DNA from: Proteiniphilum propionicum
Lineage (GTDB): Bacteria; Bacteroidota; Bacteroidia; Bacteroidales; Dysgonomonadaceae
Direction: 5' to 3'
NCBI RefSeq assembly: GCF_022267555.1
Contig: NZ_CP073586.1
Location: forward strand, 3,576,501-3,640,500
DNA length: 64,000 nucleotides
Positions 44,106-60,157 of this stretch are shown in pieces. The stretch's first letter is position 1. Each line of letters starts with the position of its first letter. Under the pieces are notes generated by a model, which saw only the letters and a list, made by a program, of their open reading frames with translations, was not told where the DNA came from and made no database searches. The position numbers and the translations under genes are program-made.

Positions 44106-44387
44106 ATGATATGCATACGTATATGCGTTGGAAGTTCTTGCCATATTAAAGGCTCTTATGATGTAATTACAAAAGCGAAAGAACTCCTTAAAAAATATAA
44201 TGCAGAAGACTTTATAGAGCTGCAAGCCTGTTTTTGCCTCGGCTCATGTTCCAAAGGAGTTTCAGTGGAGGTAATAAAAGAGCCAAGAATTGAAAAAACG
44301 GGAGAAAATTTTTTTTTGCACAATGTAAATTCAAAAAATTTCGAAGCGCTCTTCGTTAATGAAATTTATCCAGCAATATCTATTTAA
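44106..44387 (+). CDS. thioredoxin-like [2Fe-2S] ferredoxin (NuoE-like)
   Basis: This 93-residue protein has the [2Fe-2S] thioredoxin-like fold with ICVGSSCHIKGS (CX4C) and ACFCLGSCSKG (CX3C), as in NuoE/HndA C-terminal domains. It has no N-terminal NuoE helical domain. I chose ATG 44106 rather than a GTG 13 codons earlier. It is 13 nt ahead of the hydrogenase-like gene and probably feeds electrons to or from it. Confidence 0.85.
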   Translation: MICIRICVGSSCHIKGSYDVITKAKELLKKYNAEDFIELQACFCLGSCSKGVSVEVIKEPRIEKTGENFFLHNVNSKNFEALFVNEIYPAISI

Positions 44388-44400
44388 ATCAGAAAACTCT

Positions 44401-46110
44401 ATGTTTGAATATCTTGAATTTAAGGATGCAAAATGCAAGGATTGTTATTTATGTTTGCGTGAATGTCCCGTGAAAGCTATAGATATCATTAATCATCAGG
44501 CAAAAATAATAAAAGACAGGTGTATTTTATGCGGAAAGTGTACGCTAGTGTGTCCGCAGAACGCTAAAATTGTACATAGCGAAAGAGATAAAGTAGAGAT
44601 TTTATTAAGGACCAATTCTAAAGTCATAGCTAGCGTAGCTCCTTCATTTGTTTCAAATTTTGATGTGACTGATTTTGAGCCGTTTCGTATAGCATTGTGT
44701 AAACTTGGATTTTGCGATGCCCATGAAACTGCAATAGGGGCAGAAGCCGTAATAAAAGAATATGAAAAATTGATGGAATCGGGCAAGTTTATAAATTTTA
44801 TTTCTTCTGCTTGCCCTGCCGCCTGCAGTATGATACAGATGTATTACCCAAAAGCATTAAAATATTTAGCACCTGTTGATTCTCCCATGGTTGCCCATGC
44901 CAAAATGCTAAAAATGGCCATACCTGGCGCAAGTATTGTTTTCATTGGCCCTTGCATAGCAAAAAAACGTGAGGCCAGGGAGAGCGGTTTTATTGACGGA
45001 GTACTCACATTTGAAGATATCGATGTTATGTTTAAAGAGAATAACATTGTTCCGAAAGAGATATCTCATTTTGAATTTAACGAATCCGCCGACAATCATA
45101 TTAATTTATCAAAATCCTTCCCGGTAAGTCAGGGAATCATCAAATCTTTTGAATCCCTACCCGAAGGTTTCGAATATATTTCGGTAGATGGAGCCGATAG
45201 ATGTGTACAGGTTTTGGAGAATATTGAAACCCTTTCGGGTGTTTTTCTGGAGTTGAGTACCTGTCAGAATTCCTGTGTAAACGGTCCATGTATTCTTAAA
45301 AGTAAAGGAGGGAGCATAAAAGCCACGCTGGAAGTAAAAAAATATGTTCAGAAAGAAAAAGAAAAGATTAATTCATCTACCACTAACGATAATCAGAATA
45401 CAGAGAATATCAGTTTTTTTCAAAATTATCCACGCATAAGGGACAAGAGTAAGATTGGAACAGAGGAAGAAATTAAAACTATTCTTGCCAAAACAGGGAA
45501 GTTCGGTCCTGAAGACGAGTTAAATTGTGGTTCTTGCGGATACAAATCTTGCCGGGATAAAGCGTGGGCAGTTCTTAATGGCTACGCCGAAATAGAAATT
45601 TGCTTGCCATATATGAGAAAGCGGGCAGAATCTATGTCGTACGAAATCATTCATAACACTGCCGATGGAGTAGTAGTATTAGATGATTCCATGCATATTT
45701 TGGAAATCAACAAAAAGGCAAAAGAGATGTTTGGCATTGAAGAAGAATCTCTAAAAGGCCGGTTGGCCGTTGATTTCTTCAATACAGCAGATTTCATGAA
45801 TGCATACAGGGAAAATAAAAATGTAGAGATATTAAAAGATTTTATCCCCAAAACCCAATTATATGTAGATATTTCTATTAATATCTTAAAAGAACACCGA
45901 GCTCTTTTTGCCATGATGAGAGATGTTACCGCTAAAGTGGAATACGATGATAAGCTTACAAAAATGAAGTTAGAAACATTTGAAACAACCGATGCCGTAA
46001 TTCGCAAACAGATGCGTGTGGCACAGGAAATTGCATCGCTACTGGGAGAAACAACAGCGGAAACAAAAGTAGCATTATTAAAATTGAAAGATATTTATAA
46101 GAAAGAATAA
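44401..46110 (+). CDS. PAS-containing [FeFe] hydrogenase-like sensor (HsfB type)
   Basis: This 569-residue protein has a two-[4Fe-4S] ferredoxin domain (C12, C15, C18, C22; C41, C44, C47, C51), the H-cluster domain (about 70-340), a further Fe-S domain (CGSCGYKSCRDKA and CLPYMRKRA, about 375-415) and a PAS domain (about 415-520). The H-cluster cysteines are C138 (SSACPAAC), C185 (IGPCIAKKRE), C288 and C292 (LSTCQNSC). The cysteine used for proton transfer in catalytic enzymes is Ala137, and the third motif ends NGPC rather than GGG. These changes and the PAS domain fit the sensory subclass. The ATG at 44401 avoids overlap with the gene before. Confidence 0.87.
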   Translation: MFEYLEFKDAKCKDCYLCLRECPVKAIDIINHQAKIIKDRCILCGKCTLVCPQNAKIVHSERDKVEILLRTNSKVIASVAPSFVSNFDVTDFEPFRIALCKLGFCDAHETAIGAEAVIKEYEKLMESGKFINFISSACPAACSMIQMYYPKALKYLAPVDSPMVAHAKMLKMAIPGASIVFIGPCIAKKREARESGFIDGVLTFEDIDVMFKENNIVPKEISHFEFNESADNHINLSKSFPVSQGIIKSFESLPEGFEYISVDGADRCVQVLENIETLSGVFLELSTCQNSCVNGPCILKSKGGSIKATLEVKKYVQKEKEKINSSTTNDNQNTENISFFQNYPRIRDKSKIGTEEEIKTILAKTGKFGPEDELNCGSCGYKSCRDKAWAVLNGYAEIEICLPYMRKRAESMSYEIIHNTADGVVVLDDSMHILEINKKAKEMFGIEEESLKGRLAVDFFNTADFMNAYRENKNVEILKDFIPKTQLYVDISINILKEHRALFAMMRDVTAKVEYDDKLTKMKLETFETTDAVIRKQMRVAQEIASLLGETTAETKVALLKLKDIYKKE

Positions 46111-46118
46111 AATTTCCT

Positions 46119-47279
46119 ATGTGTTTTTATCTTGAAACAGGTTACACATCTCTTAATAAAACAGGAGAAGAGCTGTGTGGCGACAAAGTAGAGTCGGTTC
46201 AGAAAGATGGTTTTACCACAGTTGTCCTCGCTGACGGCCTGGGTAGCGGGGTAAAGGCAAATATTCTGGCAACACTTACTTCGAAAATTCTATGCTGCAT
46301 GATTTCCAACAATATATCCATAGAAGAAAGCATAGAAACCATTATTCAATCACTCCCTACATGCAAGGTGAGAGGAATTGCATACTCCACCTTTTCCGTT
46401 ATCCATGTAAACCAATCAGGGGAGGGCTTCCTGATGGAATTCGACAATCCGCAAGTTATTTATTATCATAATAAACGATGTGAGGATTTGAAGCGGAATG
46501 AATATATTATTTGCGACAAAAAGGTTTACAAAAGCGAATTACACATGGTAGAAGACGATATGGCAATTATGATGTCCGATGGTGTACTGCATGCGGGCGT
46601 GGGAAAAATATTGAATTTCGGTTGGGGACGTAGCGATATTATCAAATACATTAACCGAATTGTTGACTCCCCGATGTCGGCCCGTTGCGTCGCATGTAAT
46701 ATTGCTGCAGCTTGTAACGATCTTTATCTTGACAAACCTGGCGATGATACCACCGTAGCAGTAGTAAAAGCTAGAAAAAGGAAGCGGGTTAACCTAATGG
46801 TGGGACCACCGGTAGACAAAGAGAAGGATGATGCTTGTGTAGCCATGTTTCTCTCGAAAGAGGGTAAAAAAGTAGTTTGCGGTGGCACCAGCTCCCAAAT
46901 AGTTGCGCGATATTTAAATAAACCGTTAAGGACAAGTTGTGAATTTCACGACAAAGATGTTCCACCTATCGGATATATTGAAGGAATAGATTTAACAACA
47001 GAAGGAGTACTCACATTACGCCGTTTACTCGATTTGTCAGCAAAATATTTATCAGTAAACGATTTAACACCTAAGCACAGTAATAAGAAGGATGGTGCTT
47101 CACTCTTGGGCAACATTCTTTTTGAAGAAGCTACTGATGTGGAATTTTTCGTTGGTCAGAGTATTAACCAAGCTCATCAAGGACAACCTATTGATTTAAC
47201 CATGAAGTTGAAACTAGTTGAAACATTATCTGAAAATCTCAAAAAAATGGGTAAACAGGTTATCGTGAATTACTACTAA
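46119..47279 (+). CDS. SpoIIE/PP2C-type serine phosphatase linked to the hydrogenase sensor
   Basis: This 386-residue cytoplasmic protein has a PP2C-like fold in the first 225 residues with metal-binding aspartates in VVLADGLGSG, MMSDGV and KPGDDTTVAVV. The last 160 residues form an additional domain (VNLMVGPPVDKEKDDA, VVCGGTSSQIVARYL) of unknown role. It starts 8 nt after the hydrogenase-like gene. In group C [FeFe] hydrogenase loci such phosphatases are frequent neighbours, so it probably turns the redox or H2 signal into protein dephosphorylation. Confidence 0.82.
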   Translation: MCFYLETGYTSLNKTGEELCGDKVESVQKDGFTTVVLADGLGSGVKANILATLTSKILCCMISNNISIEESIETIIQSLPTCKVRGIAYSTFSVIHVNQSGEGFLMEFDNPQVIYYHNKRCEDLKRNEYIICDKKVYKSELHMVEDDMAIMMSDGVLHAGVGKILNFGWGRSDIIKYINRIVDSPMSARCVACNIAAACNDLYLDKPGDDTTVAVVKARKRKRVNLMVGPPVDKEKDDACVAMFLSKEGKKVVCGGTSSQIVARYLNKPLRTSCEFHDKDVPPIGYIEGIDLTTEGVLTLRRLLDLSAKYLSVNDLTPKHSNKKDGASLLGNILFEEATDVEFFVGQSINQAHQGQPIDLTMKLKLVETLSENLKKMGKQVIVNYY

Positions 47280-50558: not shown

Positions 50559-51848
50559 TCATTTGTTCAACGAAAAGCGCAAACCCAGACTGACGTTGAA
50601 ATTCAACGGCTTTTCCTTGTAAATGGTCTCAACCTTGCTTCCATTCCTGAAGTGGTAAGCGACCCCGGGTTCGGCATAAATTCCGATATTATTTGTTAAC
50701 CGGTATTGGATGCCAATTGCCGAATTTACAGACCATTGCAATGGTTTGACCGAGATTTCCTGCCGGCTTCGCGTCTGAAGTTTGTTGTCGATCACAAAAT
50801 TCGTTGACAGTGTGCCGGATACATTTTTTTCCACCATTCCGCCTCCCGACACATACGTTGAGATTTTGTCGTTTTCCCACACGGTGTAATTTACATTGAG
50901 CGGTATCCCCACGTAATGCAGCGTTTGCCGGCTGTTGTAGTAATGATTGTCGGTTCCCGAACGCAATCGCGACGAGAGCATTGTGTAGGTCAGTCCGCTT
51001 GTTACGCTCCACCGTTCGTCAAGATGGTATTGCATAGAAACGCCCAGTACCACCGGTTGGGAATGTTCGATATCGGTATATACATGCTGATACTCGCTCA
51101 ACACCGAAATACCCTCGGGTAAATCCGAGCGAACAGCAGCAACCACATATTCTTCTTCCTCCGACGGAAATGCATAGGGTCTAAAACTGTCGTATCCGTT
51201 GTGTGTACTCGTAGCGCCCGACGGGATGTTCGACGCGTACACGTCTGCCTGCCATTTGGCGGATTTGCGGCGATGCCTGTTTACAGGCAGTTGGAAAGCT
51301 GGCGTGTTGGTTGTTTCTATAACAGGTCGTTGCGGATTGGGGTCAGCCTGATGTTGGGTTGGGGTTTCTTCCCGTGTGTAGGATTCATCTTGAGGCTGTT
51401 GTTGTTCATCATTCTGTTGGAGTTTCACGGTTTCACCCGTCTCCGCAATTGTACTGGCTTTTGTCGTTTTCGACACGTTTTCCGTAAGTTTTCCTGCTTC
51501 GGCCCTATGCGCTAAAAGTTGTTCTTCTATTTTTGTAGCGGGCTTGTTTGGCGAATGATGCCTGTCGGGAGCCAGATTTTTTTTTAATTGCTGCTCTGCT
51601 GTCTGCATATTTTCAACATTTTCTTTCAATCCAAGGGTGTGCAAGCCGATATAAAACAAAATAAGCGCCACAGCGGCTACCGTTCCGATGCGCAGGCCCC
51701 ACAACAGGGTATTTCGCCTTGCCTGCACTGCTTTGTTGTAGCTTCCGGCATTCATGATTTGTTCTATGCGGTTCCACAATCCATCGGGAGCAGGTTCTTC
51801 ATGACGTTCCATTCTATCGCGAAGGTTATTTTGCCATTGATTTTTCAT
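50559..51848 (-). CDS. Dma-type anti-sigma factor predicted to span both membranes
   Basis: This 429-residue protein has a cytoplasmic anti-sigma-like segment (1-48, with APDGLWNRIEQIM), an inner-membrane helix (about 49-70), a long periplasmic linker rich in Gln, Glu, Thr and Pro (about 75-235) and a C-terminal eight-strand-like barrel (about 240-429) ending LGLRFSLNK. That order matches the dual membrane-spanning anti-sigma factors (Dma) described in Bacteroides thetaiotaomicron, which regulate vesicle formation through an ECF21 sigma factor. The frame is open far upstream, but ATG 51848 overlaps the sigma-factor stop (ATGA), so translation is coupled. The barrel could sense outer-membrane state. 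Confidence 0.8.
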   Translation of the reverse strand: MKNQWQNNLRDRMERHEEPAPDGLWNRIEQIMNAGSYNKAVQARRNTLLWGLRIGTVAAVALILFYIGLHTLGLKENVENMQTAEQQLKKNLAPDRHHSPNKPATKIEEQLLAHRAEAGKLTENVSKTTKASTIAETGETVKLQQNDEQQQPQDESYTREETPTQHQADPNPQRPVIETTNTPAFQLPVNRHRRKSAKWQADVYASNIPSGATSTHNGYDSFRPYAFPSEEEEYVVAAVRSDLPEGISVLSEYQHVYTDIEHSQPVVLGVSMQYHLDERWSVTSGLTYTMLSSRLRSGTDNHYYNSRQTLHYVGIPLNVNYTVWENDKISTYVSGGGMVEKNVSGTLSTNFVIDNKLQTRSRQEISVKPLQWSVNSAIGIQYRLTNNIGIYAEPGVAYHFRNGSKVETIYKEKPLNFNVSLGLRFSLNK

Positions 51849-52414
51849 AACGCCATTTTTTTTATTCGATATGATTCTATTTCTTTTATTAACAACCTTT
51901 TGGCTCTGTGAAGCTGTGATGCAGAAGAATTTTCCGCGATGCCTAATATTTGAGCAATTTCCTTGTGACTTTTTTCCTCGAAAACATACAGGTTGAACAC
52001 GGTGCGGTAGCCGACGGGAAGCGTGCGGATCATATCCAAAATGGCTGATGTGGGAATATCTTCGAAATCCGGTTCCTGGTCGTCGGTCATATCGGGTAAA
52101 TCCCAGCTTGGAAGGTTTGTAACCTTCAGTTTTTGATTTTCCTTGATGTGTTTCAATGCTTCGTTTACTACGATGCGCGCCGACCATGCCTTCAGCGAAC
52201 CTTCTCCCTTGTACTCAAACCTTTCCACGGCCTTGAAAATCTTAATAAAACTCTCTTGTAGAATATCTTTAACATTTTCTTCATTCGATACATATCGAGA
52301 GCATACTGCAGTAAGGTATCCTGAGTAAATAGTGAAAAATTCCTTCATGGCAATTGTGTTGCCTCGCACAATTTGCCGAAGAAGGGCTTGCTCTTTTGTT
52401 CCTTTTCTTACCAT
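51845..52414 (-). CDS. ECF sigma factor, Das/ECF21 type
   Basis: This 189-residue sigma factor has region 2 (TIYSGYLTAVCSRYVSNEEN, VKDILQESFIKIFKAVERF) and region 4 (LPVGYRTVFNLYVFEEKSH, KEIAQILGIAENSSASQLHR). The AENSSASQLHRAK recognition helix is common in Bacteroidota ECF factors paired with membrane-spanning anti-sigma proteins. ATG 52414 is chosen over an upstream TTG. It is the first gene of the sigma-dma operon with a strong promoter at 52564-52596. By analogy with Das1 it would set the expression of envelope genes, possibly including the two lipoprotein genes upstream. Confidence 0.85.
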   Translation of the reverse strand: MVRKGTKEQALLRQIVRGNTIAMKEFFTIYSGYLTAVCSRYVSNEENVKDILQESFIKIFKAVERFEYKGEGSLKAWSARIVVNEALKHIKENQKLKVTNLPSWDLPDMTDDQEPDFEDIPTSAILDMIRTLPVGYRTVFNLYVFEEKSHKEIAQILGIAENSSASQLHRAKRLLIKEIESYRIKKMAL

Positions 52415-52541
52415 TTGAGGAGCTCTGATCTTCAACCAGTCATAGCTAAGAACAGGAGAGCGGTTATTTGCCGTTTTATGCTTTTGCGGTTATTTGCCGG
52501 ATTTTCCGCGATGCGAAATCACGCGCCCCCTATTCTTTCAA

Positions 52542-52579
52542 CAAGGTTGTATCTTTATCGTGACAAAGATACAACCTTG
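52542..52579. promoter_or_regulatory. perfect 15-bp inverted repeat over the sigma operon promoter
   Basis: CAAGGTTGTATCTTT (52542-52556) and AAAGATACAACCTTG (52565-52579) form a perfect inverted repeat with an 8-nt spacer. The right arm contains the -7 element of the sigma-dma promoter and the start point would lie in or near the spacer. It is also 26 nt beyond the stop of the lipoprotein gene, so it may serve as terminator, operator or both. No long T-run follows on the minus strand. Confidence 0.75.
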
Positions 52580-52596
52580 CATTGCCTTTTTACAAA
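52564..52596 (-). promoter_or_regulatory. promoter of the sigma-dma operon
   Basis: Minus-strand TTTG (52593-52596), 21 bp, TATCTTTG (52564-52571): a good match to the Bacteroidota housekeeping promoter. The leader to ATG 52414 would be about 140 nt. Confidence 0.6.
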
Positions 52597-52604
52597 AAAG
52601 TTAT

Positions 52605-53177
52605 TTATTTTACGGTTACGGTTACAGTTCCGCTATTTTTCTTGTCTTTGTCAGTTACCGTAATCGTGGTTGTTCCCGCTTTCAACCCTTTTACCGTAAT
52701 TTTATCGTCGTTAACGATGGCCGAAGCTACTGCGGCATCTTTGGATTCAGCAGCATAGGGTGCCGTACCGCCCGAAACCGTCACGACAGCTTCTTTGCTC
52801 TCTTCCACTTCCAACGTTTTTTTATCGAAAGTCAGTCCTTCTTCTTTTACCGTTACGGTAATTTTACCACTATTTTTCTTACCCTTGTCGGTTACCGTAA
52901 TCGTGGCCGTACCTTTTGCTACACCCTTGATGGTAATGGTAGATTTATCGACTGTTGCGGTAGCCACCTTAGCATCACCCGATGCAACAGCATAAGGTAT
53001 TGTTCCTCCGCTCACGGTCACGGTTGCGCTATTTCCTACGGTTACTTCCACTTTATCGGACGGACTGAATTTCAGGTCTTTTTTGATGTCGTCGTCTTTA
53101 TCGCACGAGGCGAACATAAAAACCAATGCAGCCAATGAAAGGCTTGTCAATTTCGAAATTGTTGTTACTTTTTTCAT
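52605..53177 (-). CDS. lipoprotein with two bacterial Ig-like repeats
   Basis: This 190-residue protein has a lipobox (FMFASC, C25) followed by acidic DKDDDIKK, which in Bacteroidota is a signal for surface export. Two tandem repeats of about 75 residues follow, each with VSGG-PYA, an ATITVTD/TTITVTD core and KKNSGKITVTVK or KKNSGTVTVTVK, as in BIG2-type Ig-like domains. It is probably a surface or periplasmic binding lipoprotein; its ligand is unknown. It lies between the NigD-like gene and the sigma-dma operon on the same strand. Confidence 0.75.
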   Translation of the reverse strand: MKKVTTISKLTSLSLAALVFMFASCDKDDDIKKDLKFSPSDKVEVTVGNSATVTVSGGTIPYAVASGDAKVATATVDKSTITIKGVAKGTATITVTDKGKKNSGKITVTVKEEGLTFDKKTLEVEESKEAVVTVSGGTAPYAAESKDAAVASAIVNDDKITVKGLKAGTTTITVTDKDKKNSGTVTVTVK

Positions 53178-53204
53178 TTTTTTAATAATTAGAGATTATT
53201 CAAC

Positions 53205-53239
53205 GAGTGTTCTTTTTATTCATTTTTTAGTGAACACTC
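53205..53239. promoter_or_regulatory. 8-bp inverted repeat upstream of the Ig-like lipoprotein
   Basis: GAGTGTTC (53205-53212) and GAACACTC (53232-53239), 19 nt apart, lie 28-62 nt upstream of the lipoprotein start. Possible regulator site or leader hairpin; no clear TAnnTTTG promoter was found here, so an alternative sigma factor is conceivable. Confidence 0.4.
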
Positions 53240-53330
53240 TATTTATTAAATCCTCTTTTCATGAAATCTTGCATCAGAAATTCAAAATAACACGCGACAG
53301 ACATCGTTTTAACATTGTTTAGCCGAGAAA

Positions 53331-54068
53331 TTAGTTCAACGGCACCTGATTTCGGACATCGGCAATGGATGCGGATGCAGGTGTTGCGGCACGCGTGCGA
53401 TAGTCGAACTCTGCCGATTTTTCACCGCTGAACGATTTCCATATCAGCTTTAATTTCACGGTTTTTCCTTTCGTGTCGGGTAACTTGTCGAGCTTGAAGG
53501 CTACCAGCCCGTCACCTCTTCTGTCGGCGTAATCGCCGTTGGCATCGTGGCGGAATTCCACTTCGTAAGGATTGTCGGGATTATTGGTCGGAATGAGATT
53601 TACGTAGTGCACAATCCGCTGATAACCCCACAATGTTCTGAAGCGCAGGGTGAGATAACCGTCCTCGGCAATGGTCACCCAGTCGTTTACAATTTCTACG
53701 GGGTCATCGCCATACTTCTCATCGTTTTTATCCCCTAAATTAGGTGCCATCGGTTTTGTGCGGATACTGTCAATCCAATTCACACGCACAGCCTGGTCGT
53801 ATTCTTTGGAAGAATCGTCCACTTCTTCATAATTCACCAAAGCCCTCACTTCTTTCGATCCGAAAGGCGAGGATTTTAAATTGACGGGAAGCAGTGTCGT
53901 TTTATCGTCCAACTGCAAAAATACGGTTTCATCACTGGCGTGTTTTACCGTTACCAAGGCGTTGGGGTATAATTTGTTCCAATCCGAATTATCATCGTCT
54001 AAGCAAGACGGTAAAAGTAGGGCGCCGAGCAGTATGCACGCCATAAAAATAAAATGTTTAACTTTCAT
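53331..54068 (-). CDS. NigD-like lipoprotein
   Basis: This 245-residue protein has a lipobox (LLLPSC, C22) followed by LDDDNSDW, a likely surface-export signal, and two beta domains of the NigD family: an OB-like N-terminal part and a C-terminal beta sandwich (WGYQRIVHYVNLI, GLVAFKLDKLPDTKGKTVKL). NigD-like proteins are found only in Bacteroidota; in Bacteroides a NigD homolog is tied to the Das1/Dma1 vesicle system. Its place two genes upstream of the sigma-dma pair supports the same link here. Confidence 0.8.
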   Translation of the reverse strand: MKVKHFIFMACILLGALLLPSCLDDDNSDWNKLYPNALVTVKHASDETVFLQLDDKTTLLPVNLKSSPFGSKEVRALVNYEEVDDSSKEYDQAVRVNWIDSIRTKPMAPNLGDKNDEKYGDDPVEIVNDWVTIAEDGYLTLRFRTLWGYQRIVHYVNLIPTNNPDNPYEVEFRHDANGDYADRRGDGLVAFKLDKLPDTKGKTVKLKLIWKSFSGEKSAEFDYRTRAATPASASIADVRNQVPLN

Positions 54069-54105: not shown

Positions 54106-54655
54106 CTATTTTCTTATAAAATTGAAAGGGTTTTCCATAGAATCTCCTATTATTATAATACCGATAAAGTTGAAATCTTGCATCGTAAACTGAAATCTTT
54201 TAAAAAAAATATTTTGAATAGTATAGGTAAAACGAAATTATGTATTGATAAGTTTGTTAAGCAATATAAAATCAACGGATAGAAATAGTAATTTTCACTT
54301 CATCTAAATATTTTTTCAATGCATTATATCTATGAATGATACTTTTGAGGGACAATTTGATTCATTTCCATAAAGCAAGCCATTGCTCTACCGACATGAG
54401 AATGCCTAGTGTATCCAATACTATGGAATACTTCACAGTCAGAAAACAGATTTGTTTTTTTGAAAAATATTTTTCAATACAGTCAGTATTTTTAATTCCG
54501 GTTGTTTAAGCATGAAAAAAAGGAAATGAAGACATGCGGCTGAAAATTCTTTGGGAATAATAGGATGTTCTCTCTTTTTAATTAAACTTGAAAATCCATC
54601 TGCTTAGCTGGCGGTTATGATCATAAGGCTATGCCAAAATGTTTATCTTTGTATT

Positions 54656-54974: not shown

Positions 54975-55832
54975 CTGACAAGCGGTTCAAACTCTAATCT
55001 TTTGTCGGGTGAATTGGCAACACTTTTGTCAGGTCGATACGTTGAGTTTGAGATTTTCCCGTTTAGTTTTTCCGAGTTTTGTGGAATTTCAGGGTTGTAA
55101 ATCAGTAGTGAAAGTTACAGAAAATTCCTTCAAAGCGGAGCCTTGCCCGAACTTTTCAACTTGCCCAACGATGAAATGAAGCAAAATTACGTGTCATCCA
55201 TCAAAGATACGGTTATGTTGCACGACATAGAGGCACGGTATAACGTCAAGGATGTGAAGTTATTAGACAATTTGTTTGTTTATTTAGTCAATACTGCATC
55301 CAATTTGATTTCGATAACAAACATCATCAACTTTTTTGCATCGAAAATGCGGAAAACAAACTACGAAACGCTTTCATCTTACGTCAATTATTTGGAAAAT
55401 TCTTTCCTTGTTCATCGTGCCGAACGCTATAATATAAAAGGCAAAAACACCATTTCGGGCAACAGCAAATATTATCTGAACAATTTGGCTTATCGAAACT
55501 ATCTTTATGCCGGATTTGGTTACGGAATTGGTTATTTGTTAGAAAATGCCGTTTATCTGAGTTTGCGGCGTGCCGGATTTCAGGTTTATGTGGGAACGAT
55601 AAAAGACACCGAAGAGGATTTTGAGGCAATTAAAGGCGAACGCCGAATTTATCTGCAAGTAACTCACCAGCTTATAGAGGAGCAGACAATAGAAAGAGAA
55701 TACCACTCATTAAAACTTATCGATAATAATTTCGCTAAGTATGTGGTAAGTATGGATGATTATAAAATTCCCACCAATGAGGGAATTGAACATATTCCGG
55801 CTTGGAATTTGGATGGTTTTTTAAGCAAATAA
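54975..55832 (+). pseudogene. AAA/DUF4143 ATPase, 5'-truncated and interrupted
   Basis: The ATP-binding Walker A part is gone. The remaining frame begins [20 protein letters not shown] (sensor region), [15 protein letters not shown], then an in-frame TAA at 55098-55100, then SYRKFLQSGALPELFNLPND and the whole DUF4143 domain (to WNLDGFLSK). The 3' part from 55143 remains open for 229 codons and could still be translated. It is homologous to the intact gene at 60.3 kb and was probably cut by the IS200 insertion. Confidence 0.8.
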
Positions 55833-56109
55833 TTTTGAAAAAGCAGTAAGTGATAATTTTTATTTACGCATGAACCTCTTGCGCGAATTAATAAATTGCA
55901 CGAACGACAATAATATTTATGCCCATCATCTCCAACATACTTCCCCGATACACCCAACTCAACACGATAATTGCCGAAGTTTCACACAGACAATCAATTG
56001 AGTTTGCTCAACAACAATTTGTTGTGGATTTTCATACTCAATTCAATACTATTCAGGCGTTTGAAGCGATGTTGATTGACTTGACGATGCAAACCGAATT
56101 AGAATGTTT
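55758..56109 (+). repeat. ~350-bp repeat, copy A (ATPase tail plus start of next gene)
   Basis: This segment, covering the last 75 nt of the broken ATPase gene, an 86-nt spacer and the start of the next gene, matches 61580-61929 at roughly 75-80% by eye. Both copies keep the same gene order, so an ATPase-coiled-coil gene pair was duplicated. Confidence 0.8.
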
Positions 56110-56122
56110 TCCATACAATTAA
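55919..56122 (+). pseudogene. truncated copy of the element's coiled-coil gene
   Basis: This 67-codon frame (MPIISNILPRYTQLNTIIAE to ELECFPYN) matches the first 60 codons of the gene at 61739-62722 and then diverges and stops. In the other copy residues Ala-Glu at position 19-20 are replaced by Asp-stop. It is the start of a gene whose remaining 260 codons were lost. Confidence 0.7.
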
Positions 56123-56127
56123 TGTAT

Positions 56128-56158
56128 ATTTCGTGCAAAATAGAAAAACGCACGAAAT
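56128..56158. repeat. 9-bp inverted repeat at the break of the duplicated segment
   Basis: ATTTCGTGC (56128-56136) and GCACGAAAT (56150-56158), 13-nt spacer, directly follow the truncated coiled-coil gene. It could mark an element end or act as a terminator. Confidence 0.45.
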
Positions 56159-56291
56159 TCTTATCGGACAGATTTTTTGAACCTGAAAGAACAATCGTGT
56201 TAACGTAGTGATTGAACGGCTTCAAATAAATCGGACGATGTGCCGCAGACGAACCCATTAGCAAGAATTTGACAGTATTCAACATAAAAGG

Positions 56292-56347
56292 GGCAGACAA
56301 GAATTTAGTCGTACCGAACTACTTCGGACGGTTGCTTTTTGTCTGCC
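56292..56347 (+). terminator. long-loop hairpin with T-run
   Basis: GGCAGACAA (56292-56300) pairs with TTGTCTGCC (56339-56347), followed by TGTTTT. The 38-nt loop contains further short complementary stretches. It could be a terminator or a structured RNA in the 56123-56487 gap, which has no gene. Confidence 0.4.
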
Positions 56348-56487
56348 TGTTTTCTATATAAGCTGAAGTGTTTTATTTGCAGCAGTGACTCGGTTTTACT
56401 AAAAATGAATTTTTGTTTCATCGCAAATAAGTAAATCAGAATACCACAAACAGGTAAAGTAAATTACCACAAAAAAGGAAAACATAT

Positions 56488-56517
56488 TTGTAAAATTCTA
56501 AAAAACACTTATATTTG
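56488..56517 (+). promoter_or_regulatory. promoter of the ATPase gene at 56.5 kb
   Basis: TTG (56488-56490), 19 bp, TATATTTG (56510-56517), a full match to the Bacteroidota consensus. Start near 56524, 15 nt before ATG 56539. Confidence 0.65.
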
Positions 56518-56538
56518 TATCTATTTAATAATGATTGT

Positions 56539-57831
56539 ATGAACTACCTATATCGAATAGCGGACAAAATACTACTTGAGCGGCTTGAAGCTTTTGGAGC
56601 TGTTCTCATTGAAGGTCCAAAATGGTGTGGAAAAACAACAACAGCAGAACAAGTGGCAAAAAGTGTCATCAAACTGCAAGATACGGATATGCGGGAAGAA
56701 TATCTTGCAACGGCTGCATCTAAACCCTCGTTACTACTGCAAGGGGAAACACCGCGATTGCTTGATGAATGGCAAGATGCACCTGTCTTGTGGGATGCCG
56801 TTCGCACAATGGTTGACAAGAGAAACTTGCCCGGACAATTTATTTTGACCGGTTCCAATGCCATTGACCGAAATTCCATCCATCATTCCGGTACAGGCAG
56901 GATATCAAGGATGCAGATGTTTCCGATGAGTTTATGGGAATCCGGAGAGTCAAACGGTAAAGTTTCGCTTCAAGAGTTATTTGATGATCCCGAACTAGAT
57001 ATTGATGGAGTTAGTTCTGATATGCAGATTGAAGATCTTATTTATGTAGCGTGTCGTGGTGGATGGCCTGCGACAGTAAATATAAAAACAAATAAAGCTA
57101 AGCTCCTCGTCGCAAGAAACTATGTCGACACAATCTGTAAAGAAGATATATCAAGAATAGACGGCGTGAAACGTGATGAACGCGCTGCAAAAATACTGCT
57201 TCGAAGCTACTCGAGAAACATCTCAACCCTTGCCAAAAACACTTCTATACTTGCCGACATTGCATCTTCCGGGGAGATTTCTATGACCAAACCTACTTTC
57301 GATAATTATGTGAATGCTTTGCAAAAGCTGTTTGTTATTAGCAATATCGATGCGTGGTCGCCGGCTATTCGAAGTAAAACAGCCATCAGGAGCAGTTCGA
57401 AGAGAGCCTTTATTGATCCTTCTATTGCTGTTGCTTCTTTGGGGCTTACTCCGGAGGCATTGTATACTCAGTTAAAAACTTTCGGATTCATTTTTGAACA
57501 GCTTTGTATTAGGGATTTGAAAGCATATACACTTGATTTTAACAGCCATATATCTTATTACCGTGATCGCTACGGATTAGAAGCAGACCTTGTACTACAT
57601 CTTTCGGACGGAAGATATGCTTTAATAGAGTGCAAATTAGGCAGTAGAGAAATTGAAGAAGGCGCACAACATCTACTTCAATTAAAGCACCTTATCCGAG
57701 AATATAATGAGAATGAAAAACAAGTTCCGCTGCGTGAACCCGATTTGCTGATTATATTAACCGGTGGTAAAATGGCATATAGTCGCCCTGATGGTGTAAA
57801 AATTATTCCAATTGCAGTTCTTAAACCGTAA
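56539..57831 (+). CDS. AAA family ATPase with DUF4143 domain
   Basis: This 430-residue protein has Walker A EGPKWCGKTTTAEQ (about 25-38), Walker B-type RLLDEWQDAPVLW, sensor FILTGSNAIDRN, and a C-terminal DUF4143 domain with a PD-(D/E)XK-like segment (GLEADLVLHLSDGRYALIEC) typical of this family. Such genes are abundant and multicopy in gut Bacteroidota and archaea; a defence or DNA-related role has been suggested but not settled. It has its own promoter. It belongs to a different subgroup from the copies at 55 and 60 kb. Confidence 0.85.
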   Translation: MNYLYRIADKILLERLEAFGAVLIEGPKWCGKTTTAEQVAKSVIKLQDTDMREEYLATAASKPSLLLQGETPRLLDEWQDAPVLWDAVRTMVDKRNLPGQFILTGSNAIDRNSIHHSGTGRISRMQMFPMSLWESGESNGKVSLQELFDDPELDIDGVSSDMQIEDLIYVACRGGWPATVNIKTNKAKLLVARNYVDTICKEDISRIDGVKRDERAAKILLRSYSRNISTLAKNTSILADIASSGEISMTKPTFDNYVNALQKLFVISNIDAWSPAIRSKTAIRSSSKRAFIDPSIAVASLGLTPEALYTQLKTFGFIFEQLCIRDLKAYTLDFNSHISYYRDRYGLEADLVLHLSDGRYALIECKLGSREIEEGAQHLLQLKHLIREYNENEKQVPLREPDLLIILTGGKMAYSRPDGVKIIPIAVLKP

Positions 57832-57852
57832 AGATGAAAATTGTTATAAAAA

Positions 57853-58233
57853 TCATATTTTTATTCTTACTGTCGATGACTTGTCTACCATACTAGGCGT
57901 GGCTTTAATTGTAGAAACCTCCTGTCTCACTTCGCTGTTATCCTCCTTTTTCAGTGATAAAGCAATATTTCGATCTAATTCGATAATCTGCCGTTTCAAT
58001 TCTTTGAGTTCGTCCTCTTTTCTCCACGAAGTAGCGGCTACGGATTTAAACACTGGTATTTTTGCTCGAATTTTCTCCAACTCTCTGGCATGACTTTCGG
58101 TAATCTTGGGAATTTTCTCCAAGGCATTGATGAAGTTCATCCAGACCAATTTCGGATCGTTAGCCAAATGCCCGTTGTTGTAGGTGTAGTGTATCCAGTC
58201 GGCTATGAGCGTGTTGTAAGAATGGGTGAAATT
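57853..58233 (-). pseudogene. C-terminal fragment of a conjugative-transposon methylase/helicase
   Basis: The minus frame reads NFTHSYNTLIADWIHYTYNN, then LVWMNFINALEKIPKITESH and WRKEDELKELKRQIIELDRN. This resembles the end of the very large N6-methylase/helicase proteins carried by Bacteroides conjugative elements. The frame has no proper start (TTG only, or open into IS debris) and ends in a normal stop at 57853. It marks a former conjugative element here. The family call is from memory of such proteins, so moderate. Confidence 0.5.
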
Positions 58234-58364
58234 AGAACATGACCTCCCGGCCGGTTACCATCGTTATTCCCAGATCGAACCGATGCATTGGGATACCCTT
58301 CCGCCATGGTGGAAAGGCAATATCATATTAGGTAGTAAATAAGGGGATATTGTGGTGGAGCTTT

Positions 58365-58508
58365 TTACTGAAGGTTGTTCTTTTTCCAATTGTGTGGGAG
58401 CAGTTCATCCAGTTTATTTGCGTGATGATCAGGTATTCTGTTGGGGACATCGGTCATCCATTGCTGGAATTCACTCCGGCTCCGCTGCAACAGGTAGTTC
58501 TTCCTGCC
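58365..58508 (-). pseudogene. IS66-family transposase 3' remnant
   Basis: The minus frame GRKNYLLQRSRSEFQQWMTD, VPNRIPDHHANKLDELLPHN and WKKNNLQ-stop is the C-terminus of an IS66 TnpC transposase, with a deletion inside (the usual segment between GRKNYLL and the Trp-Met is missing). The preceding 58235-58342 plus-strand frame (YHRYSQIEPMHWDTLPPWW) is another orphan fragment that I cannot name. Confidence 0.7.
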
Positions 58509-58560
58509 TTATGTTGTGCAGCACATAACCTGCCCCGGGCAAGCTTCCGGATTTTATTTT

Positions 58561-58751
58561 CGATGAAGTTATCAAAACTTTTGGATAACTTCATCGAAAG
58601 GTTCTGGAGGAACATCAAATACGAGAAAATTTATCTCGAACCATCTGATAATGGTTTGGAATTATATCACAAGATAAGGGATTACATAAAATTTTACAAC
58701 ATGGAAAGGTCCCATCAGGGATTAGGATATAAAAGGCCGATAGAAATGTAA
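58561..58751 (+). pseudogene. IS3-family transposase 3' remnant with 13-bp inverted repeat at its break
   Basis: LDNFIERFWRNIKYEKIYLE, then ELYHKIRDYIKFYNMERSHQ and GLGYKRPIEM-stop is the end of an IS3 orfB (DDE integrase core with the third catalytic Glu in FIERFW). The 5' end is lost. A perfect inverted repeat CGATGAAGTTATC (58561-58573) with GATAACTTCATCG (58584-58596), 10-nt spacer, lies exactly at the break. Confidence 0.8.
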
Positions 58752-58764
58752 CGGATGGCCGCGT

Positions 58765-58804
58765 AGTTTCTTCGGATCGTCCAGCCGGGCGATCCGAAGA
58801 AACT
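58765..58804. terminator. perfect 15-bp inverted repeat between IS3 remnant and integrase
   Basis: AGTTTCTTCGGATCG (58765-58779) and CGATCCGAAGAAACT (58790-58804) form a very stable hairpin with a 10-nt loop. It may be the terminator behind the IS3 transposase, or part of the integration site of the element that begins with the integrase gene 64 nt further on. Confidence 0.6.
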
Positions 58805-58867
58805 AACTTAAATTAGAAATAAATTGTCTAAGAGAGGGGAGAAGTTAATTCTTAGGGATAAATAGCT

Positions 58868-60157
58868 ATGAATATTAAGAGAAATGTAATTTTTGCATTA
58901 GAGAGTAGAAAGAAGGACGGAAAGCCTATTGTTGAAAATGTGCCAATTCGTATGCGTGTTGTTTACAATAATCAGCGGGTAGAGTTTACCACCGGTTACC
59001 GGATTGATGTGTCAAAATGGGATGCTGAAAAGCAACGAGTAAAAAATGGCTGTACAAACAAGTTGAAACAAACATCAGCTGAAATTAACGGTGATTTGTC
59101 TAATTACTTCACGGAAATTCAAAATATTTTCAAAGAGTTTGAAGTGAAAGACGAAATGCCAACAACAGTTCAACTTCGTGAAGCTTTTAATCTTGCAATC
59201 AAAAAAGTTGAACCGGAAGAAAATACTGTTCAAGAAAAACCGCCCCTTGATTTTTGGAAGGTATTCAATGAATTTGTATCGGAAAACAGCAAGCGAAATA
59301 ATTGGGCAAAAGGGACTTTGCAAAAATTCAATGCCTTAAAAAAACACATTGAAAGGTGGAAATCTGAACCCACGATGGACGATTTTTCCGAAAAAGGACT
59401 TTCCGATTTCGCCGACACATTGCACAAGCAAGACTTGAAAAATTCTACAATTGACAAACAAATAGGATTGTTGAAGTGGGTGCTTCGCTGGTCTGCATCT
59501 AAGAATTTGACATCGGATAACGCTTTTATGAACTTCAAACCCAAATTAAAAACCGCACGAAAAACAGTCGTATTTTTGGATGCTCAAGAGTTAAAACAAC
59601 TAACAGATTTTGAGATACCTGAAGATAAAAAATACTTAGAAAAGGTTCGTGATATTTTTCTATTTTGTTGCTACACGAGTTTGCGTTATTCAGATGTTTG
59701 CAATTTATGTCATTCAAACATAAGAGACTCTTACATAGAAATAGTTACGGTAAAAACCAATGACAGAATTGTCATTGAATTTAATGATAAGAGTAAAGCC
59801 ATATACGAAAAATACAAAGATTTTCACTTTGAGGGTGGAAAAGTATTTCCTGTAATATCCAACCAAAAAATGAACGATTATTTGAAAAATTTGGCAGAAC
59901 TGGCAGGGCTTAATAATCCGGTACATCAAACGTATTACAAAGGAAATGAGCGTATTGAAACCATTCTGCCTAAATATGCCGTACTAAGTACCCATGACGC
60001 GCGTCGCACTTTTATCTGTAATGCCCTTTCACTTGGCATTCCGGCAAATGTGGTTATGAAATGGACGGGACACAGCGATTATAAGGCAATGAAGCCCTAC
60101 ATCGACATTGCCGACGATATTAAAGCGAGTGCCATGAGTAAGTTTAATCAGTTATAA
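58868..60157 (+). CDS. tyrosine site-specific integrase
   Basis: This 429-residue recombinase has the Bacteroidota arm-binding domain (1-100; ESRKKDGKPIVENVPIRMRV), a SAM-like core-binding domain (about 125-225) and the catalytic domain with Arg in TSLRYSDVCNL, His-x-x-Arg in STHDARRTFICNAL, the second His in KWTGHSDYKAMKPY and the nucleophile Tyr in KPYIDIAD. All catalytic residues are present, so it may be active. It would integrate and excise the element that runs rightward from here. The gap before it holds no promoter I can identify. Confidence 0.92.
   Translation: MNIKRNVIFALESRKKDGKPIVENVPIRMRVVYNNQRVEFTTGYRIDVSKWDAEKQRVKNGCTNKLKQTSAEINGDLSNYFTEIQNIFKEFEVKDEMPTTVQLREAFNLAIKKVEPEENTVQEKPPLDFWKVFNEFVSENSKRNNWAKGTLQKFNALKKHIERWKSEPTMDDFSEKGLSDFADTLHKQDLKNSTIDKQIGLLKWVLRWSASKNLTSDNAFMNFKPKLKTARKTVVFLDAQELKQLTDFEIPEDKKYLEKVRDIFLFCCYTSLRYSDVCNLCHSNIRDSYIEIVTVKTNDRIVIEFNDKSKAIYEKYKDFHFEGGKVFPVISNQKMNDYLKNLAELAGLNNPVHQTYYKGNERIETILPKYAVLSTHDARRTFICNALSLGIPANVVMKWTGHSDYKAMKPYIDIADDIKASAMSKFNQL

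Follow-up and report, generated by a model that had tools for sequence, protein, structure and literature searches.

An Ig-like lipoprotein gene apparently tied, through a shared promoter motif, to a Das/Dma-type sigma/anti-sigma locus in Proteiniphilum propionicum

We have analysed a four-gene locus of Proteiniphilum propionicum, lying in a stretch of 64,000 nucleotides (contig NZ_CP073586.1, positions 3,576,501 to 3,640,500; hereafter the window, to which plain coordinates refer). Because of the build of its proteins and its gene neighbourhood, the locus is of the known Das/Dma (EcfO-Reo) kind. What is new here is the Ig-like lipoprotein gene, which a shared promoter motif suggests is tied to the Das/Dma switch. 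Overall, the locus probably encodes a sigma/anti-sigma pair that monitors the outer membrane and switches on, besides its own genes, interchangeable surface lipoproteins.

The four genes lie on the minus strand in the order nigD, Ig-like gene, das and dma. They encode a NigD-like lipoprotein of 245 aa (53331..54068; Pfam NigD_N and NigD_C), an Ig-like lipoprotein of 190 aa with two Big_2 domains (52605..53177), the ECF sigma factor Das of 189 aa (51845..52414; Pfam Sigma70_r2 and Sigma70_r4_2), and Dma, a predicted anti-sigma factor of 429 aa reaching across the inner and outer membranes (50559..51848). For das, the ATG at 52414 was taken as the start, which yields the same length as in the nearest relative. 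The das stop (51847-51845) and the dma start (51848-51846) overlap as ATGA. The first-pass annotation of this DNA had called these four reading frames, the overlap of the sigma stop with the anti-sigma start, and the NigD-like and two-repeat Ig-like lipoproteins upstream; all of them are present at the position it gave, on the minus strand, and Pfam bears out both lipoprotein calls. On one side of the locus, an iron-only-hydrogenase-like protein with a PAS domain is followed by a SpoIIE-type phosphatase (44359-47279). On the other side (55143-60157) lie two DUF4143 proteins, the first with no AAA part detected, together with a transposase-like ORF (58350-58751) and a tyrosine integrase (58868-60157); the locus may here adjoin the border of a mobile element.

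The predicted structure of Dma follows the plan of the Dma family, that is, an N-terminal anti-sigma region, one transmembrane helix, a disordered tether and a C-terminal barrel, and the gene of a cognate ECF sigma factor adjoins it, an adjacency kept in relatives. This place beside a Dma protein would agree with Das being an ECF21 sigma factor. In the AlphaFold2 model (46 sequences), N-terminal helices cover residues 4-15 and 24-34, and a long helix at 47-72 covers a hydrophobic stretch. The residues of low confidence are mostly those from 74 to 182; they are followed by a conserved beta hairpin (199-217) and an eight-stranded barrel (266-427, pLDDT about 85-97). The pTM of 0.55 is as expected, because the two parts share a loose linker. 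Pfam assigns OMP_b-brl_2 and OMP_b-brl to the C-terminal part, and a Foldseek search with the model places outer-membrane barrels at the top, with OmpA transmembrane-domain entries within the top five from the PDB. Searching PDB sequences with the Dma profile yielded weak and apparently unrelated matches only, mostly covering the linker. The first-pass annotation had expected one inner-membrane helix and a C-terminal outer-membrane barrel, and its reading hung on the latter; the prediction gives helix 47-72 and an OmpA-like barrel of eight strands. It had also proposed a linker of about 160 residues. A linker is indeed present, but its length differs: about 110-125 residues are poorly predicted, while the distance from helix to barrel is about 190 residues including the hairpin 199-217.

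Against the NCBIfam model NF051862 of the NigD1/NigD2 family, for which the cut-off is 60, the NigD-like protein reaches 250.6 bits, and it thus belongs to that family. For the Ig-like protein, AlphaFold2 predicts a disordered N-terminus and then two Ig sandwiches (pLDDT about 95; mean pLDDT 85.7). In Bacteroidota, surface-exposed lipoproteins carry an acidic export signal (LES) right after the lipid-bearing cysteine (PMC5080379). Judged by eye, the lipobox of the Ig-like protein is followed by C-DKDDD, which fits C-X-K-(D/E)2, and that of the NigD protein by C-LDDDN, which is acidic but lacks a polar or lysine start. From these acidic residues, both lipoproteins are predicted to be at the cell surface.

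The das-dma arrangement is widely conserved. The family of this genome includes, as named relatives, Proteiniphilum, Petrimonas, Fermentimonas and Dysgonomonas, and a Dma match is found in 94 of its 101 genomes, paralogues included. Of 40 loci examined, 34 have a Dma match, and most of these 34 show the order nigD-das-dma, with nigD orthologues equally placed in most relatives. The same order occurs in named Petrimonas, Proteiniphilum and Barnesiella records. In a few relatives the ORFs are short or split (a das of 60 aa in L174, nigD as two ORFs in L183, dma as two ORFs in L185), which may reflect decay or assembly error. We further compared the best 80 named das-dma loci, drawn from Bacteroidales and Flavobacteriales (Chryseobacterium, Myroides), and in all 80 a small lipoprotein gene precedes das. 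It encodes NigD in 36 loci, Ig-like plus NigD in two, Ig-like in two, and a DUF4840-like protein in 40, the last count being assigned by sequence pattern or by eye; Pfam confirms DUF4840 in all four slot lipoproteins submitted to it, of which that of L119 lies outside the 80-locus set. Since an Ig-like gene adjoins das only in the window and in 4 of the 80 named loci, it should be seen as accessory. Homologues of it adjoin das-dma in L082/L164, L094/L218, L170 and L227, and lie downstream of dma in L109 and L110. The first-pass reading depended in part on a conserved neighbourhood and had asked about conservation of the four-gene order; the order nigD-das-dma is widely kept, but an Ig-like gene stands beside das in a minority only.

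In a tree of the sampled Das proteins, those with the promoter motif described below (group A), L246 excepted, form one clade with 100/100 support that spans both orders and contains the Das of the window. The loci with an Ig-like gene in the slot (the window, L164, L170, L218 and L227) are scattered across this clade. A sister set, group B, has nigD divergent from das-dma; by eye and on both strands it shows a motif related to that of group A, GCAGTATTT followed by ATTTA. This set might be the Bacteroides type.

The group-A motif is bipartite and ECF-like, YGCAAGRTT followed after 13-16 nucleotides by TTTA, a spacing which we take to be compatible with an ECF -35/-10 pair; in relatives it reads TGCAAGRTTT, a spacer, then TTTA. 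In the window, the 14-mer GATGCAAGATTTCA occurs ahead of both nigD and the Ig-like gene. The predicted Das-dependent promoter of nigD, TGCAAGATTTCAACTTTATCGGTATTATAAT (54152..54182, minus strand), has a -10 block that differs from the consensus, and that of the Ig-like gene, TGCAAGATTTCATGAAAAGAGGATTTAAT (53245..53273, minus strand), matches the strict motif. Among the 80 named loci, 79 carry the motif before the slot lipoprotein gene, at most 1.9 kb upstream of das, against about 0.03 expected per upstream region from the rate elsewhere in the same loci; this and the other motif counts are descriptive and go with no pre-set tests, because the patterns were tuned by eye during exploration. In the one remaining locus (L229) the contig ends there and the upstream sequence is missing. 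For L177 and L183, the automatic match was the hairpin near das, and the true promoter, with a slightly longer spacer, was located by eye. Where nigD (L152) or the Ig-like gene (L154) is remote from das, the motif is kept as well. From this conservation and position we infer that Das reads the motif.

At the genome scale, a strict version of the motif, YGCAAGRTT-N13-15-TTTAAT, is found 27 times in the 101 family genomes, versus 9 times for the reversed pattern; when inspected, 15 of these 27 sites proved to lie ahead of nigD or Ig-like genes. Two strict matches occur in the genome of the window, namely the Ig-like gene promoter and one inside a coding ORF. No distant group-A regulon was found in this genome: of 12 loose matches, the other 11 are mostly within genes. 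Most of the extra matches in Chryseobacterium and Myroides look like chance, judged by eye from the matches alone. The portion of the Dma and EcfO-Reo literature that was covered holds no mention that we found of this motif or of an Ig-like partner.

These observations suggest that the slot before das holds interchangeable lipoproteins (NigD, Ig-like, DUF4840) under Das control in two orders. That a small lipoprotein gene precedes das in every named locus, and that the families in the slot vary while position and motif are conserved, would also suit a slot protein that acts as a sensor partner, binding or threading the Dma barrel, so that the operon couples a switch to its ligand. We consider this unlikely. 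Because the lipoproteins appear to be controlled by the switch, they fit the role of output better, and several close Ig-like homologues and one nigD sit elsewhere.

We have then compared 20 Ig-like loci of the genus. All 11 close homologues (score above 77 bits) have a group-A motif or a second motif, group C, whose form was loosened slightly for this count after the sites were seen, while none of the nine more distant Ig proteins, mostly larger, has either. Group C, GCARCRTTTT, N8-12, CATC, was first noticed before a paralogous das in the genome of the window, which contains two further das-dma pairs, C1:349071-349592 (L002, L262) and C1:693410-694657 (L003, L263). In the eight genomes searched, group C precedes das paralogues, NigD paralogues and Ig-like lipoproteins; since it precedes all three, Das appears paired with NigD and Ig-like lipoproteins under a second promoter specificity as well. 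In the genome of the window, the NigD paralogue at C1:1180527-1181150 has the group-C motif upstream, and the motif common to it and to the das at C1:349071-349592 suggests a separate Das-NigD circuit. Several remote Ig-like genes without a group-A motif (L113, L114, L116-L118) were considered as counter-evidence and dismissed, as the group-C motif is present. At two remote sites (L113:2172-11500 and L117:2042-11000), Ig-like lipoproteins with a group-C motif occupy an equivalent position, between proteins of about 990 and about 1700-1800 aa.

Based on the motifs, the Ig-like lipoprotein very likely belongs to the Das regulon. It had earlier been proposed as a new member of the system, and it does look like a regulon member, sharing the promoter motif even when its gene is remote. 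One could instead regard the Ig-like gene as a chance passenger with no link to Das, given its presence in a minority of loci and the integrase and transposase-like genes on the right flank of the window. Such a reading is very improbable, since the motif is shared in cis and in trans (with the contrast between close and distant homologues noted above) and adjacency to das recurs on different branches of the tree of Das proteins. The gene is, moreover, under purifying selection by a rough estimate: between the window and the relative X52, a simple count gives dN/dS of about 0.16 for the Ig-like gene, 0.15 for das and 0.18 for dma, values that are only rough because dS is high. In L170, the Ig-like gene follows nigD and has no motif copy of its own.

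Between the Ig-like gene and das lies a palindrome (52541..52580, minus strand), GCAAGGTTGTATCTTTGT-CACG-ATAAAGATACAACCTTGT, with a perfect 18-bp stem, including a G-T pair, and a loop of 4 nt. Its exact form occurs once in the genome of the window, and nearly all of the 16 relatives examined, Myroides included, have a comparable stem-loop ahead of das, with a core near GGTTGTAC. The hairpin might reduce das-dma expression relative to that of the lipoproteins, as a terminator or a site of processing, or it might be an operator. Overlapping it is a putative housekeeping-type promoter before das, TTTG ... TATCTTTG (52564..52599, minus strand), which by eye we take to resemble the Bacteroides -33/-7 consensus.

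Taken together, the switch that we favour would operate as follows. The cytoplasmic helices of Dma would hold Das, by analogy with Dma1 and Reo, and the protein, crossing the inner membrane once, is predicted to end in the outer membrane as an OmpA-like barrel. A disturbance of the barrel or of the outer membrane would release Das, which would then read the bipartite promoters before nigD and the Ig-like gene. Both predicted surface lipoproteins should rise, and das and dma presumably with them by read-through, a positive feedback. A second output would be the Ig-like protein, in whose place other species have only NigD or else a DUF4840 lipoprotein, and extra vesicles may be one consequence, by analogy with Bacteroides thetaiotaomicron.

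Dma has been described as a Bacteroidota family (PMC13088901). In B. thetaiotaomicron, Dma1/Das1 raise vesicles through nigD1 (bt_4005), and Dma2 raises them without nigD1 (PMC13088901). EcfO-Reo of Phocaeicola vulgatus, whose anti-sigma factor has the same build, is described as an envelope-stress response. Its regulon includes three nigD genes; toxins that act on the envelope induce it, and induction in the mouse gut is strong (PMC9308784, PMC13114119). The window could hold a dedicated vesicle-control locus, where the Das output, chiefly NigD, blebs the outer membrane, with the Ig-like protein either carried as vesicle cargo or acting as a vesicle factor. The action of Dma1/Das1 with NigD1, the membership of the window's NigD in the NigD1/NigD2 family and a NigD protein detected in P. 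vulgatus supernatant (PMC13114119) speak for it, and the independence of Dma2 from nigD1 and the stress-response description of EcfO-Reo speak against it; we hold it possible but doubtful. As a name for the system, envelope stress suits at least as well as vesicle control.

More widely, and only tentatively, there may be a phylum-wide Das/Dma switch with one slot, interchangeable surface lipoproteins and a promoter code for each paralogous Das, in which the slot protein may be a barrel ligand. The predicted Das promoter code, common to Bacteroidales and Flavobacteriales, would make regulons readable from genome sequence. It seems that NigD is one among several lipoproteins of the same slot, which makes the role of the slot lipoprotein testable and bears on how Bacteroidota sense outer-membrane damage, form vesicles and use NigD proteins.

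Among known systems, EcfO-Reo (Bacteroides fragilis; P. vulgatus M0N98_03761-03760) likewise pairs an ECF sigma gene with a downstream gene for an anti-sigma factor running from cytoplasm to outer-membrane barrel; nigD genes belong to its regulon, and one of them, M0N98_03762, has the adjoining locus tag. It differs in its larger regulon, its three nigD genes and its LPS effects, a comparison by description rather than sequence. The earlier proposal of the same system outside Bacteroides stands as to a Das/Dma-type pair, by architecture and neighbourhood; such a system outside Bacteroides is in itself no novelty, given EcfO-Reo in P. vulgatus (PMC9308784, PMC13114119). Das1-Dma1/NigD1 of B. 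thetaiotaomicron shares the anti-sigma part, single helix, disordered tether and barrel, and has a NigD1-family lipoprotein as target; its vesicle phenotype is known, whereas the Proteiniphilum locus is known from its genes and likened by build. Das2-Dma2 (BT_1559-BT_1558) has the same protein plan, but the neighbouring genes upregulated there encode DUF4943, DUF4858 and a further protein, neither NigD nor Ig-like, and nigD1 is uninduced. Finally, the DUF4840-das-dma loci of Chryseobacterium, Myroides and Dysgonomonas capnocytophagoides share the promoter motif, the lipoprotein-das-dma order and the Das clade with the window, and differ in having a DUF4840 lipoprotein in the slot rather than NigD or an Ig-like protein.
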